Assembly: GCA_035288405.1 (NCBI GenBank)
Contig: DATEAK010000009.1
Coordinates: forward strand, 1-5,331
Origin: JACPSX01 sp035288405 [NCBI: bacterium]
GTDB lineage: Bacteria; JACPSX01
Direction of reading: 5' to 3'
DNA: 5,331 nucleotides
In this document: positions 347-5,331 of the stretch, piece by piece
How the letters are laid out: the number at the start of each line of letters is the position of its first letter
How positions within the stretch are numbered: the stretch's first letter is position 1
Made by a program: the position numbers and the translations under genes
Notes under the pieces: model-generated
Told to the model about the DNA's origin: nothing
The model's input: the letters and a program-made list of their open reading frames with translations, nothing else
The model's database searches: none

Positions 347-1651
347 CTAACTCTCCTCTCCCCCGAAGACTCGTTGGAAAATGGTGTCTACGTGACGCAT
401 AAAATAGTCCATGGAGAAACAATCCTCGATTTCCTTCTCCGAGAGGTGCCGGGTAATTCCCGGTTCTTTCTTCAAAAGGGCCTTGAACTCCCCCTCTCCT
501 CTCCAGGCAGCCATGGCACTTTTCTGCACGAGCTCGTAGGCATCTTCCCGTGAAATCCCCCTTTGAGTCAACGCCAGAAGCACCCTTTGAGAGAAAACAA
601 TTCCCTGACCTAGGTTCAGGTTAGCGGTCATTCGTTCCGGATACACGAGAAGCCGGTCGATCATTCCTGTAAGACGTGAAAGCATGTAGTCCAAGGCAAT
701 CGTGCTGTCCGGAAGGATCAAGCGCTCGACGGAAGAGTGACTGATGTCGCGCTCGTGCCAGAGAGGAATGTTCTCCAGAGCGGGAATCAGGTTTCCCCTC
801 ACCAGGCGGGCAAGCCCGCAGATCTGCTCGGCCCCAATCGGATTGCGCTTGTGAGGCATGGCAGAGGACCCTTTCTGCCCTTCCGAAAAAAACTCTTCCA
901 CCTCCAGCACTTCCGTGCGCTGTAAGTGACGGACTTCCGTGGCGATTTTTTCCACCATGCCGGCCACCAGTGCAAGCATGGCTACGAATTCTCCATGTCG
1001 GTCCCGCTGAACGATCTGTGTCGAAATGGGGGCAGGCTTAAGCCCCAGTTTTTGGCAAACGTACTCCTCAATCTCTGGAGGCACATGAGCAAACGTGCCG
1101 ACAGCCCCTGAGATCTTGCCGTAGTTGATGACCTCCCGAGCGCGCGCCATCCGCTCCCGGCTGCGCCCGGCATCCGCATACCAGAGGGCCAGTTTCAGGC
1201 CGAACGTCATGGGTTCGGCGTGAATCCCGTGGGTGCGACCCATGACGGGGGTGCGCTTGTGTTCGAAAGCACGGCGCTTGAGCACGCCCTCCAAACGCTT
1301 GAGGTCCTCCAAGATCAAGTCAGCTGCTTCCCGGAGTTGCAGGGCCAAAGTGGTGTCCAGCAGATCGGACGAGGTAAGCCCTATATGAATGAAGCGCGAA
1401 TCTTCACCAACTGATTCCGCCACGTTGGTTAAAAAAGAAATGACGTCGTGCTTGACGGTTTTCTCGATTTCATCAATCCGCCCGGCATCAAAGCGCGCGC
1501 GCTGACGGATCCGTTCCACTGCCTCGGAGGGAACCGCTCCCTGGCGGGACCAGGCTTCACAGCACAGGATCTCGATTTCGAGCCACTTCCTGTACTTATT
1601 CTCATCGGACCAGATGCGGGCCATGGCGGGCCGGCTGTATCGGGGAATCAC
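347..1651 (-). CDS. purB: Adenylosuccinate lyase
   Basis: PurB performs two beta-eliminations releasing fumarate: SAICAR to AICAR in IMP synthesis, and adenylosuccinate to AMP. The 434-residue product has the length of the Bacillus subtilis type and belongs to the fumarase/aspartase superfamily, which forms cytoplasmic homotetramers. Visible motifs are KHDVISFL (67-74), HIGLTSSDLLDT (89-100), GRTHGIHAEP (138-147) and the superfamily signature GSSAMPHKRNP (261-271). His68, His89, His141, Lys268 and Glu275 fall at the numbers of the known active-site residues of the B. subtilis enzyme, so the enzyme looks intact; the signature loop serine is at 262/263. The start is GTG at 1651, giving the typical opening MIPRYSRPAM, with GGAGG nine bases upstream. 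It lies 5 bases after the stop of the preceding gene, and its own stop is one base before the next ATG. Product identity is essentially certain. Confidence 0.98.
   Translation of the reverse strand: MIPRYSRPAMARIWSDENKYRKWLEIEILCCEAWSRQGAVPSEAVERIRQRARFDAGRIDEIEKTVKHDVISFLTNVAESVGEDSRFIHIGLTSSDLLDTTLALQLREAADLILEDLKRLEGVLKRRAFEHKRTPVMGRTHGIHAEPMTFGLKLALWYADAGRSRERMARAREVINYGKISGAVGTFAHVPPEIEEYVCQKLGLKPAPISTQIVQRDRHGEFVAMLALVAGMVEKIATEVRHLQRTEVLEVEEFFSEGQKGSSAMPHKRNPIGAEQICGLARLVRGNLIPALENIPLWHERDISHSSVERLILPDSTIALDYMLSRLTGMIDRLLVYPERMTANLNLGQGIVFSQRVLLALTQRGISREDAYELVQKSAMAAWRGEGEFKALLKKEPGITRHLSEKEIEDCFSMDYFMRHVDTIFQRVFGGEES
353..358 (-). promoter_or_regulatory. Ribosome binding site of the 33-codon ORF
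   Basis: The minus strand reads GAGGAG here, within the final Glu-Glu codons of purB and 7 bases before the ATG at 345. It is one of the best matches to the anti-Shine-Dalgarno sequence at any start in the window, which is the main reason to treat the small ORF as translated. Confidence 0.6.
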
Positions 1652-1656
1652 AGAAG

Positions 1657-2640
1657 CTAGCCTCCGGATTTCTGTGTCTTTTCCAGTTCTTCAACTACAA
1701 GTTGGTAGAGAATCGGGATCATGATTTCGTGGTGACCGATCAGGGAATACCCCCTTCCACCTCCAATGTTCGGGCGGTGGACTACGTTGGTCAGAGGACG
1801 ATAATGCGAGATCATATCGAGATTCACCGTGGTGAAATTCCGCACCGGAGACGCGAGATTGCGCGCCACGCTGAGGGCTTTTAAGAACACCTCCGGGAGA
1901 ACCACGGCGGAGCCTACATTCAGATAGACTCCCCCTTCCCCCATGCGGGTAACAACTCCTGTGAACAGCCGAAAATCGTTCATGCTCCCCAAACCAATGG
2001 TAGCTCCATCCGCACTCGGATGCATATGGACGATATCAGTCCCTACGGCCACATGAAGAGTCACCGGGATCCCCAAACGATAGGCATTCCCCACCAGGCT
2101 CAGTTCCCCATGCGGAAGAGATTGTTCCGACAATGCCCGCCCCAGGGCTTCCCCCAGGCCTACATCGTCTTTTACGTAACGTTTCCAGGCGCCATTTAGA
2201 AAGGTTCCCGTTTCTTCCCCCATTCCGAAGCGGCCTGTTTCCAATTCCGACGCTACGTCTTCCGAAGTTTGACCCATAAACGCCATCTCAAAATCGTGCA
2301 CGGCCCCGGCTCCATTCATGGCCAGGCAACTTACCGCCCCCCGCTTCATGAGATCGATGATCAGCGGGCTCAAGCCGCACTTGATCACGTGCGCACCCAA
2401 TCCCCACAGAACCGGCTTCCCGCTTCTTACTGCGCCGACGATCGCTTCCCGAACCTCTCTCAAATCCCTACCCTTCAAGATTTGCGGAAACAAGGAGGAA
2501 AGCGAGTCCACTTCTTGCCAGCGCGCCACTGGGGCCAGGTCTTCCCGGCGGACCAGGCTTTTCCGTTGCGCCACGGGATAGGTCTTCACCTTGCCGAGGT
2601 CTACAAGTTGAGAGGAAAATTTACCGCTCTCTTTTCCCAC
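1657..2640 (-). CDS. Conserved-looking protein of unknown function, between hldE and purB
   Basis: I cannot assign a function to this 327-residue protein. It has no signal peptide or membrane segment and looks like a soluble alpha/beta enzyme. Patterned segments are KPVLWGLGAHVIKCGLS (75-91), LAMNGAGAVHDFE (106-118), GMGEETGTFLNGAW (139-152), VAVGTDIVHMHPSADGA (197-213), GGVYLNVGSAVVLPEVFLKA (236-255), HRPN (288-291) and GHHEIMIP (302-309). Alternating hydrophobic strands and glycine-rich loops suggest a nucleotide- or cofactor-binding Rossmann-like fold; HMHP and GHHE could bind metal. The order of elements, especially residues 100-150, faintly recalls deoxyhypusine-synthase-like proteins, but I see no clear catalytic lysine motif, so this is only a lead. 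The start is GTG at 2640, overlapping the end of hldE by 20 bases, with a weak GGCGGA upstream; a later GTG at 2589 (VKTYPVAQRK) is possible. Placement between a sugar-nucleotide gene and purB suggests co-expression, not a specific role. Confidence 0.85.
   Translation of the reverse strand: MGKESGKFSSQLVDLGKVKTYPVAQRKSLVRREDLAPVARWQEVDSLSSLFPQILKGRDLREVREAIVGAVRSGKPVLWGLGAHVIKCGLSPLIIDLMKRGAVSCLAMNGAGAVHDFEMAFMGQTSEDVASELETGRFGMGEETGTFLNGAWKRYVKDDVGLGEALGRALSEQSLPHGELSLVGNAYRLGIPVTLHVAVGTDIVHMHPSADGATIGLGSMNDFRLFTGVVTRMGEGGVYLNVGSAVVLPEVFLKALSVARNLASPVRNFTTVNLDMISHYRPLTNVVHRPNIGGGRGYSLIGHHEIMIPILYQLVVEELEKTQKSGG
1661..1665 (-). promoter_or_regulatory. Ribosome binding site of purB
   Basis: The minus strand reads GGAGG, nine bases before the GTG start at 1651 and inside the last codons (Ser-Gly-Gly) of the upstream gene. 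It supports the GTG as the purB start over the in-frame ATG ten codons in (MARIW). Confidence 0.7.
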
Positions 2641-4144
2641 TGCTGATCCGCCGCTTGCGATTCTTTCCGGACGAATTGTACTTCTCCACGATAGCCTGTA
2701 CCAGGCCGCTGGTGGAACGCCCCTCCACCAGGGGAATTAATTCGACGAGTCCTCCGTAGGATTCCACAATGTTTCGTCCAACAACCTGTTCTCGTGTGTA
2801 GTCCGCCCCTTTGGCAAGAACGTCGGGTTTCAGCTCTGCAATGAGCTGTTCAGGAGTTAACTCCGAGAAAAGAGTAACATAATCGACGCAATTCAGCGCC
2901 GCCAGAATTCGAGCTCTTTCTTCCTGTCCGATCAAAGGGCGTTCGGGTCCTTTTAAGGCGCGCACGGAGGCGTCGTCATTGAGTCCCACGATCAGCAGAT
3001 CTCCCAGGCTGCGGGCTTGTTCGAGAAACTTGATGTGCCCCGCATGCAGGAGATCGAAGCAGCCGTTCGTAAAGACGAGCTTTTGTCCCCGGCTCAGGGC
3101 GGCATTGCGCACTCGCACGGCCTCCGGCCGCGACACCACCTTGCTCCGCGAGGTAGCGCCCTCCTCCCCCCAATGGGCTAACAGTTCCTCCCGACCGACG
3201 GTGGCGGTGCCGACTTTGCCCACCACGATTCCCGCGGCACCGTTGGCGAGATGCGCGGCGGTTTTCAAATCCGCCCCGGCGAACAAGGCAAGCGCAAAAA
3301 AGCTGATGGCCGTATCCCCGGCCCCGGTCACGTCGTACACTTCTCGAGCTGCCGCCGGAAGATGATAACCCTCAAGACCGCGAGTGCAAAGAGACAGCCC
3401 GTCCCGTCCCCTGGTAATCAATACTGCTTCCAATCCCAACGTGTCTATAAGGGACTGTCCTCCCTCCTCAATCTCCCGCTCCGACTGCAGCGGACGGCCG
3501 CAAGCAAGCTCGGCCTCCTTTAAATTGGGAGTCAAGACGTGGGCACCTCGATAGCGTCCGTAGTCCTTCCCCTTGGGATCCACCAGAAGCCATTTCCCCA
3601 TAGTCCTCGCCTGACCAGCAACGAAAGCGAGCACGGAAGGGCTCAAAGCTCCCTTCATGTAATCAGAACAGATGACTCCATGGACCCCCGGAAGAATATC
3701 GCCGATCCAGTCGATGAGTTCCTGCTCCACCTCTCCGGAGATGTCCCGATGCACCTCCCGGTCAATCCGCACGACTTGCTGGCTGTGCGCAATCACCCGG
3801 ACCTTGTGGGTTGTCGGTCTTTGCGGATCTTCGACGACTCCTTCGTGCTGAATGCCCCGGCCCTCGAGGAGCTTAAGAATCTGCTCACCTGGAGGGTCGG
3901 ATCCAACGATTCCGCCAACGATCACATGGACCCCGACAGCCGCCAAGTTGGCGGCTACGTTAGCGGCACCTCCGAGAACCCATTCACTACTTTGCCACTC
4001 CACGACCTGTACAGGAGCTTCCGGTGAGATTCGTTCCACCCGGCCCCACAGATACTCGTCCAGAATGAGATCCCCGAGTACCAGGATCTTCAGTTCCCCC
4101 GCCCGATCCAGAATCGGCTCGATTTCCGCGACCAACGGCTTCAT
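2621..4144 (-). CDS. hldE: Bifunctional heptose 7-phosphate kinase / heptose 1-phosphate adenylyltransferase
   Basis: HldE (RfaE) acts twice in cytoplasmic ADP-heptose synthesis for lipopolysaccharide core: it phosphorylates D-glycero-D-manno-heptose 7-phosphate at C1, and after the GmhB phosphatase step adenylylates heptose 1-phosphate. Residues 1 to about 325 are a ribokinase/PfkB-type kinase: GDLILDEYLWGRVERISPEA (24-43), LGGAANVAANLA (57-68), LVDPKGKDY (187-195), LTPNLKEAE (204-212) and DVTGAGDT (271-278), with Asp277 the likely catalytic base. Residues about 350-490 are the nucleotidyltransferase: TNGCFDLLHAGH (359-370) with its HxGH nucleotide-binding motif, GLNDDASVR, KGADYT (445-450) and GRSTSGLV. 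At 507 residues it is about 30 longer than E. coli HldE (477), partly through a basic tail (KNRKRRISSGKRER) that overlaps the next gene. Its ATG overlaps the gmhA TGA (ATGA). Both domains look complete. Confidence 0.97.
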   Translation of the reverse strand: MKPLVAEIEPILDRAGELKILVLGDLILDEYLWGRVERISPEAPVQVVEWQSSEWVLGGAANVAANLAAVGVHVIVGGIVGSDPPGEQILKLLEGRGIQHEGVVEDPQRPTTHKVRVIAHSQQVVRIDREVHRDISGEVEQELIDWIGDILPGVHGVICSDYMKGALSPSVLAFVAGQARTMGKWLLVDPKGKDYGRYRGAHVLTPNLKEAELACGRPLQSEREIEEGGQSLIDTLGLEAVLITRGRDGLSLCTRGLEGYHLPAAAREVYDVTGAGDTAISFFALALFAGADLKTAAHLANGAAGIVVGKVGTATVGREELLAHWGEEGATSRSKVVSRPEAVRVRNAALSRGQKLVFTNGCFDLLHAGHIKFLEQARSLGDLLIVGLNDDASVRALKGPERPLIGQEERARILAALNCVDYVTLFSELTPEQLIAELKPDVLAKGADYTREQVVGRNIVESYGGLVELIPLVEGRSTSGLVQAIVEKYNSSGKNRKRRISSGKRER

Positions 4145-4746
4145 GTCCTTTCAGGGTTCGGGGCCAGAAATGTATCGACCGCCGCACAGATGATGTGCCC
4201 CACTGTGATGTGAACCTCCTGAATGCGCGCCGTATTTTGGGAAGGAACCACGATGGCAATGTCCGCTTGGCGGGAGAGCTTTCCCCCGTCCTTCCCTGCC
4301 AGGGCAATGGTCTTGATCCCACGCTCCTTGGCCACCCGCACGGCCTCCAGGACGTTTGGAGAGTTTCCGCTCGTGCTCAGGCCGATCACCAGATCGCCCG
4401 GGCGAGCCAGGGCTTCGATCTGCCGGGAAAAGACTTGGTCAAAGTGAAAATCATTGCCTATGGCGGTCAAGATCGATGTATCCGTCGTCAGTGCCAGTGC
4501 GGGCAGTCCACGGCGTTCCCTCTCGAAACGTCCGACAAGCTCCGCGGCGATATGCTGGGCATCGGCGGCACTGCCCCCGTTGCCCATCAAAAGCACCTTA
4601 CCGCCCGCCTGCAGAGTCTCCACAACCAAGAGAGCGGCGCGCTCGATCTCGCCCGTCAGTTCCCGTGCAACCCGCACCTTCAGGTTCGCACTCTCCTCCA
4701 ATGATCTGACAATTTGCTCCTGCAAGTTCCCAGGGTTCCGGCTCAT
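4141..4746 (-). CDS. gmhA: Phosphoheptose isomerase (sedoheptulose 7-phosphate isomerase)
   Basis: GmhA converts sedoheptulose 7-phosphate to D-glycero-D-manno-heptose 7-phosphate, the first step toward ADP-heptose and the substrate-forming step for HldE next door. It is a cytoplasmic SIS-domain enzyme, normally a tetramer of about 190-200 residues; this one is 201. Seen are MGNGGSAADAQHIAAELVGR (54-73), STSGNS (124-129) in the sugar-phosphate loop, and TARIQEVHITVGH (172-184). His65, Glu69, Gln176 and His184 line up with the zinc ligands of E. coli GmhA (61, 65, 172, 180) at a constant offset. I chose ATG at 4746 over the in-frame GTG at 4752 because GAGAGG lies 7 bases before the ATG but only one base before the GTG, and because the ATG overlaps the radC TGA (ATGA), the same junction type as gmhA-hldE. 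The GTG would add Met-Ala. Confidence 0.96.
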   Translation of the reverse strand: MSRNPGNLQEQIVRSLEESANLKVRVARELTGEIERAALLVVETLQAGGKVLLMGNGGSAADAQHIAAELVGRFERERRGLPALALTTDTSILTAIGNDFHFDQVFSRQIEALARPGDLVIGLSTSGNSPNVLEAVRVAKERGIKTIALAGKDGGKLSRQADIAIVVPSQNTARIQEVHITVGHIICAAVDTFLAPNPERT

Positions 4747-5331
4747 CGCCACACCTCTCTCGCTGCGATTCCTCCACTCTGAAGATAGCCTTTATCCGCA
4801 AAACTCAAGTGACACCCGTCGCCGATGATAATATGGTCCAAGACACGAATGCCGATCAGGTCTCCCGCTTCCTGCAAGCGCCGGGTCAGTTCTCGATCTT
4901 CCCTGCTGGGGGTGGGATCACCGCTAGGGTGATTGTGGACAAACAGGACGGCAGCCGCCGAATCACGGATGGCCGGGTTAAATACCTCCCGAGGATGAAC
5001 CAGGCTCGCGTTCAGCGTCCCTTCGGAAACCGTTACATCGCGGATCAACTCATTCTTCGTATTCAACAGCAGAACCTTAAACACCTCTTTTTTCAGACTG
5101 CGAAGCTGGGGAATATAGCGGCTGGCCACCTCACGGCTCGAAGAAAACCCTCCTCGCTTTACAGGTTCAACGTCCTGCAAGCGCTTACCGACCTCCAGGG
5201 CCGCCTTAATCTGGGCCGCCTTGGCCGGTCCGATCCCTTTGATCCGGCACAACTCCCGAGGGCTTGCTTGCTCAATTCCCCGCAGGCCTTCAAATTCGGA
5301 GAGCAGCGCCCGGGCCAGATCGAGAGCACTT
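4743..5331 (-). CDS. radC: RadC family JAB/MPN-domain protein (5' end cut by window edge)
   Basis: The frame is open to the right edge. The first visible codons read SALDLARALLSEFEGLRG, matching the N-terminal part of RadC, so the true start is outside; a TTG at 5252 in LCRIKGIG is not the start. About 195 residues are visible against about 225-230 for the family, so roughly 30 are missing. Visible residues about 27-45 (CRIKGIGPAKAAQIKAAL) form a helix-hairpin-helix, a DNA-binding type motif. The C-terminal part is the RadC JAB/MPN domain, with FVHNHPSGDPTPSREDRELT carrying the metal-binding H-x-H and downstream S-x-x-D pattern of JAMM proteins. The name comes from an old repair phenotype in E. 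coli later attributed to recG; the real role of RadC is unsettled and JAB homology suggests a hydrolase. Its TGA overlaps the gmhA ATG, making it the first visible gene of the transcript. Confidence 0.96.
   Translation of the reverse strand, partial: SALDLARALLSEFEGLRGIEQASPRELCRIKGIGPAKAAQIKAALEVGKRLQDVEPVKRGGFSSSREVASRYIPQLRSLKKEVFKVLLLNTKNELIRDVTVSEGTLNASLVHPREVFNPAIRDSAAAVLFVHNHPSGDPTPSREDRELTRRLQEAGDLIGIRVLDHIIIGDGCHLSFADKGYLQSGGIAAREVWR
4754..4759 (-). promoter_or_regulatory. Ribosome binding site deciding the gmhA start
   Basis: The minus strand reads GAGAGG within the last radC codons. It is 7 bases before the ATG at 4746 and abuts the alternative GTG at 4752, so it favours the ATG. 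Confidence 0.6.

Follow-up and report, generated by a model that had tools for sequence, protein, structure and literature searches.

The heptose of the lipopolysaccharide (LPS) inner core is made by a textbook pathway in which HldD catalyzes the last step. In the window, by which we mean the whole stretch of 5,331 nucleotides that was analyzed, two genes of heptose synthesis share an operon with a gene here called X. The order on the minus strand is gmhA-hldE-X-purB, in which gmhA (4141..4752, minus strand; TIGR00441, 223.7 bits, cut-off 209.45) encodes sedoheptulose-7-phosphate isomerase, hldE (2621..4144, minus strand; TIGR02198, 368.4 bits, cut-off 345; second domain TIGR02199, 196.2 bits, cut-off 181.5) heptose-7-phosphate kinase / heptose-1-phosphate adenylyltransferase, X (1657..2640, minus strand) a protein of 327 amino acids starting with GTG at 2640 and ending with the stop codon 1657-1659, and purB (347..1651, minus strand; TIGR00928, 547.8 bits, cut-off 326.2) adenylosuccinate lyase. 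The open reading frame after purB, read by eye, is presumably purS. First in transcription order is a RadC-type JAB-domain reading frame (4743..5252, minus strand), the 3′ end of which reaches 10 nt into the start of gmhA; radC is likewise found upstream of gmhA at two of the homologous loci (L003 and L006).

A first-pass annotation, made from this sequence alone, had described X, giving no strand, as an enzyme-like protein fixed between ADP-heptose and purine genes, overlapping hldE by 20 nt and ending 5 nt before purB. Both distances agree with the coordinates, the overlap being with the 3′ end of hldE, and the four motifs that it quoted are all found in the translation of X.

The product of X is a member of the GSU2086 family (NF052581; 414.5 bits, cut-off 250, E 3e-124), with residues 13-313 matching profile positions 2-300 of 301; the NCBIfam name of the family gives no function. 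Among the matches listed for X at E values up to 1, none was to the HldD model TIGR02197. Below their cut-offs were the matches to deoxyhypusine synthase PRK00805 (20.3 bits, cut-off 434), TIGR00321 (15.3 bits, cut-off 304.25), PRK02301 (13.6 bits, cut-off 364), the Pfam family DS (PF01916; 18.2 bits, cut-off 27), ArgZ-like_C_2nd (17.2 bits, cut-off 27) and TIGR00300 (12.5 bits, cut-off 410.8, covering only profile positions 201-252 of 407). When relatives were sought in the PDB, the best E value was 1.1 with the single sequence and 0.002 with a profile (6juy, the match being confined to the first half of X).

A scan of genome contigs yielded 301 relatives, the best 80 of which served as the homologue set. 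Among these 80 the closest, L001 from a Tectomicrobia MAG, shares 83% identity with X and the others 47-56%; to judge from their record titles, they span Nitrospirae, Nitrospinota, Omnitrophota, Acidobacteria, Deltaproteobacteria, KSB1, Cloacimonadota, Zixibacteria and other groups. In 14 control genomes HldD was over cut-off in E. coli and Caulobacter, and X in none. Long frames at L141-L145, considered as fusions of X, run upstream of X across other genes out of frame with them and were rejected. The reading frame is genuine, and X is a conserved enzyme from an uncharacterized bacterial family whose fold is known (see below).

Among the best 80 of the 301 relatives, 46 have gmhA or hldE no more than 300 nt from X (gmhA at 29 loci, hldE at 18), and in two phylum samples gmhA is found within this distance at 24 and 20, respectively, of the 30 best-scoring X loci. 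By comparison, purB is found within 500 nt at only 3 of the 80 loci and is probably a neighbor of X outside its system. The heptose side of the proposed fixed position therefore holds, as does the link to sugar phosphates that had also been raised, while the purine side does not, and a link of the whole family to purine synthesis was rejected. At the other 34 of the 80 loci neither gmhA nor hldE is within 3 kb, some loci ending at contig edges. For 32 of these 34, 74 of the 109 neighboring proteins were scanned; the commonest among the 25 of 241 families listed were holA (6) and tgt, rseP, cmk and generic SDR epimerases (4 each). An SDR epimerase gene follows X after 45-48 nt at three of the 80 loci (L005, L009 and L013, all from Omnitrophota), and at two others a weak match to an SDR lies 2-4 kb away from X. 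At L005 and L013 a gene for a DUF3108 protein comes next after the epimerase.

For Geobacter sulfurreducens grown on electrodes, the sections of the Tn-seq study consulted give values of -3.2 for GSU2086, -3.1 for hldE (GSU2085) and -3.7 for gmhA (GSU2087), and list GSU2086 as a "hypothetical cytoplasmic protein in sugar biosynthesis operon" (PMC5585712). Insertions in GSU2086 could act via a polar effect on hldE, since the argument in these sections that read-through from the cassette relieves polar effects was made for another, essential operon and not for that of GSU2086 (PMC5585712).

Because X shares its operon with gmhA and hldE and no hldD was seen there, HldD (TIGR02197) was surveyed in genomes containing X, in four phylum samples comprising 502 genomes. 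Pooled, HldD is present in 13 of 228 genomes with X versus 135 of 274 without X. The two genes thus rarely occur in the same genome, 13 having both where 60.4 were expected (Mantel-Haenszel odds ratio 0.063, p 4.5e-25); the genomes being related and kinship uncorrected, this and the following p values overstate the avoidance. The phylum names of the samples are deduced from record titles. In the Desulfobacterota-type sample (118 genomes) 75 have X, 24 HldD and 7 both (expected 15.3; Fisher p 2e-4), in the Acidobacteriota-type sample (149 genomes) 43, 34 and 2 (expected 9.8; p 4e-4), in the Nitrospirota-type sample (118 genomes) 74, 24 and 1 (expected 15.1; p 2e-11), and in the Omnitrophota-type sample (117 genomes) 36, 66 and 3 (expected 20.3; p 7e-13). 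These samples further contain 26, 74, 21 and 18 genomes, respectively, in which both X and HldD fall short of their cut-offs, and since so many genomes are without either, the absence of HldD does not require X. The calling is clean, HldD matches between E 1e-60 and the cut-off being found in 0, 0, 0 and 2 genomes, and with a stricter HldD call (>330 bits) the odds ratio is 0.14 (p 3e-10). HldD matches in four genomes (G193, G219, G252 and G271) are near-full-length and carry one in-frame TGA or TAG each, which may reflect a pseudogene, a sequencing error or recoding.

Among 49 X genomes of a set that overlaps these samples, drawn from 50 of the 80 loci, HldD is over cut-off in one; the other 48 reach at most 156 bits (cut-off 274.6), and L001, the closest relative, has in its genome no HldD match above 116 bits. 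Four of the 13 genomes with both genes (G089, G151, G190 and G216) carry only a divergent form of X, named X′ (see below), and nine are unexplained. A tree of the HldE nucleotidyltransferase domain from 80 genomes of one phylum, which is weak, the domain being short, has at least 9 changes of the X state and at least 15 of the HldD state; as far as such a tree can be read, this speaks against a single split into X and HldD lineages. A paired test on the same tree is uninformative because genomes with neither gene were left out.

Other steps of the pathway were followed in one sample. GmhB-type matches (E ≤ 1e-20) are found in 67 of 75 X genomes versus 31 of 43 others, a positive association, with only 20 of the 118 genomes reaching the GmhB family's own cut-off, and X as a substitute for GmhB was rejected in view of the 67 genomes with both. 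Domain II of HldE is matched in 109 of 118 genomes at E ≤ 1e-20 and over cut-off in 99; of the 109 genomes with such an hldE-type match in one sample, 24 lack X as well as HldD.

In some relatives hldD occupies the operon slot after hldE that X has in the window. Of the 34 genomes with HldD in the Acidobacteriota-type sample, at least 9 have an hldD match that begins 26-71 nt past the one to hldE, and four loci chosen for the purpose (L222-L225) show this arrangement directly. Mostly hldD is distant. Neither gmhA nor hldE was found near it at 19 of 20 Desulfobacterota-type loci, at 11 of 12 from the Nitrospirota-type sample, where L218 with gmhA-hldD is the exception, or at 22 of 23 from the Omnitrophota-type sample, where the exception is L196 with hldD-hldE kinase.

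The structure of X was predicted with AlphaFold2 from an alignment of the window protein with 65 of the 80 loci (mean pLDDT 89.9, pTM 0.87). Foldseek comparison of this model with the PDB, a check that the first-pass annotation had proposed, returned deoxyhypusine synthases as top matches (7cmc_C, E 4.0e-9) and, lower down, ArgZ/AgrE and 3c2q. With VIA the C-terminal NAD domain of ArgZ/AgrE (6lrf_B; Z 21.3, 223 residues aligned, rmsd 3.3) and deoxyhypusine synthase (7cmc_D; Z 21.1, 263 residues aligned, rmsd 3.5) tie. On this predicted model the earlier guess of a deoxyhypusine synthase-like layout was right. The reference entries compared were PF01916, TIGR00321, 7cmc and 1dhs for deoxyhypusine synthase, and 6lrf, 6juy, 3c2q and TIGR00300 for ArgZ/AgrE ornithine cyclodeaminase and LOR/SDH-like proteins. 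Profile alignment with hhalign gave a probability of 92.5 (E 4.9e-7, a weak similarity) for four deoxyhypusine synthase-like proteins and of 92.1 for three TIGR00300-type proteins, both sets coming from the phylum sample of G023. The predicted fold of X is thus of the NAD type seen in deoxyhypusine synthase and ArgZ/AgrE, and from the model we infer that X may bind NAD. NCBIfam annotates TIGR00300 as nickel-pincer-nucleotide-dependent, and the hydride carrier of X may be something other than NAD; a literature search pairing the nickel-pincer nucleotide with ornithine cyclodeaminase found no paper.

Deoxyhypusine synthase, the substrates of which are spermidine and eIF5A, carries its catalytic lysine in an SWGK loop. 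In the global profile alignment this loop faces a gap in X, and residues 276-303 contain no conserved lysine among 70 homologues. Since the catalytic-lysine loop has no counterpart, X appears to form a separate family of the deoxyhypusine synthase fold rather than a deoxyhypusine synthase. HldD, by comparison, has an SDR fold, from which the modeled fold of X differs.

Conservation was determined in 70 homologues picked for their HMM scores and not through a peptide pattern, three genomes being counted twice, and considering polar and charged residues only. Conserved in all 70 are H84, H115, H196, D202, H205, E250, K254, H304 and E305, and also R26, S28, K87, N109, E118, T125, S126, E127, T144, S181, D222, S244, N261, N273, D275, Y280, R281, N285 and R289; D116 and H207 are found in 69 and H303 in 67. 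Residues 77-92 (2365..2412, minus strand; H84, K87, G89) are the first strand, turn and helix of the Rossmann-type half and align with the deoxyhypusine synthase-like and ornithine cyclodeaminase profiles. They are followed by the HDFE motif of residues 115-118 (2287..2298, minus strand), in which H115-D116 aligns with an invariant H-D in both the deoxyhypusine synthase-like and the TIGR00300-type set, the latter sharing with X the motif HDxE. Residues 196-207 (2020..2055, minus strand) form the motif HVAVGTDIVHMH with H196, D202, H205 and H207, residues 250-254 (1879..1893, minus strand) contain E250 and K254, and residues 303-305, HHE (1726..1734, minus strand), stand where the C-terminal helix begins, which in the model comprises residues 304-325. 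The enzyme-like motifs noted in the first pass are therefore kept in the family; two of its histidines, numbered 206 and 208, are correctly His205 and His207.

The divergent branch X′ consists of 10 sequences (L131-L140) which retain most of the invariant residues of X, E250 and K254 in 10 of 10, and depart from it at positions 28, 87, 126, 273, 280, 285 and 305, differences that suggest another substrate. HldE-like neighbors are found at 8 of the 10 loci and a GmhA-like protein at 4, and at L133 (5444-7048) X′ and an HldE-type nucleotidyltransferase are fused in a single frame of 535 amino acids. The two X′ clusters scanned most fully, L131 and L137, both contain an SDR epimerase, together with an O-antigen-ligase-type and a glycosyltransferase gene in L131 and a split transketolase in L137; they suggest an unusual heptose-like sugar pathway. 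At L138 an SDR was absent among the two neighbors scanned.

There is good support for a place of X in the heptose pathway. From the family, the predicted fold, the gene context and the avoidance of HldD, which rest on data, we infer the use of NAD, a reaction at C6 and the stage in the pathway, and propose, at what we judge to be an even chance, that X is a non-orthologous, NAD-dependent replacement of HldD with an unrelated fold. Deoxyhypusine synthase and ornithine cyclodeaminase, which share this fold, move hydride without net redox change, and to our knowledge C6 epimerization is the sole step of the heptose pathway to be both redox-neutral and dependent on a nicotinamide cofactor; together with the missing HldD this points to a C6 epimerase. 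On its deoxyhypusine synthase/ArgZ-type NAD-binding fold, X would replace HldD in the ADP-heptose pathway as follows: a tightly bound NAD+ would take a hydride from C6 of the D-glycero-D-manno-heptose intermediate, the 6-keto form would then present its opposite face, and the same NADH would give the hydride back to yield the L-glycero-D-manno form. The substrate would be ADP-heptose or, considered because gmhA and X are frequently paired, heptose 7-phosphate. For replacement of HldD we count the avoidance, its specificity in that GmhB is not avoided, the heptose-gene context, the operon slot shared with hldD in some relatives, the fusion of X′, the NAD-type fold and the Tn-seq values; against it count the 13 genomes with both genes, the genomes with neither gene, the co-occurrence of X′ with an SDR and the SDR genes after X at 3 of the 80 loci, the 34 loci with no gmhA or hldE within 3 kb, the mostly distant position of hldD, the few GmhB matches over their own cut-off and the uncorrected kinship.

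The main rival is that X acts in the heptose pathway toward another product, for example an oxidized, 6-deoxy or otherwise modified heptose or one formed by acting in another way on sedoheptulose or heptose 7-phosphate, and that HldD is absent as the cells do not produce the L,D-sugar. This would also make HldD dispensable and give the same avoidance; the X′ clusters with an SDR, in L137 with the split transketolase, resemble a pathway to an unusual sugar, and the SDR epimerase genes after X at 3 of the 80 loci and the genomes of one sample that have hldE without X and HldD (24 of 109) fit as well. We regard it as possible and rather doubtful, since hldD occupies the operon slot of X in some relatives and the redox-neutral hydride transfers of the fold suit epimerization. 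That X has no reaction of its own and is an accessory protein, regulating or scaffolding heptose synthesis, would explain its operon linkage and, in the sections consulted, a Geobacter Tn-seq effect resembling that of the pathway genes (PMC5585712), and is improbable given how many His, Asp, Glu and Lys residues of this cofactor-binding fold are invariant. A role in polyamine or hypusine metabolism, by which X would be a deoxyhypusine or homospermidine synthase-like enzyme next to heptose genes by chance, shares the fold and the weak profile similarity and was rejected as highly improbable, X scoring far below the deoxyhypusine synthase cut-offs and lacking the lysine loop, while a separate gene over such a cut-off (L152) is found in the same phylum sample and gmhA or hldE adjoins X in several phyla. 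At another locus, L154, a deoxyhypusine synthase-like gene (484-1554) is followed by what by eye is an agmatinase-type gene (1545-2459), a polyamine context unlike that of X; its genome, G103, carries X too.

Beyond the first-pass annotation, what is new here is the curated family assignment of X and its avoidance of HldD. Literature searches found nothing joining deoxyhypusine synthase with heptose, nothing on a non-orthologous ADP-heptose epimerase and nothing on the distribution of ADP-heptose or HldD, and the excerpts returned by searches on heptose and Geobacter did not contain the LPS chemistry of species with X; judging by these searches alone, the proposed role may be absent from print.

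Extended from X to the whole GSU2086 family, the replacement of HldD would make it a second, non-SDR epimerase acting at C6 of ADP-heptose or heptose phosphate in many genomes from at least four phyla, with X′ serving in parallel heptose-like pathways, for which we put the chances at slightly short of even. If this is true, a widespread family of another fold would complete the heptose pathway in a large number of environmental and uncultured lineages, the deoxyhypusine synthase fold would gain sugar epimerization, and the GSU2086 family, which has a name and no function, would get a simple and decisive test.
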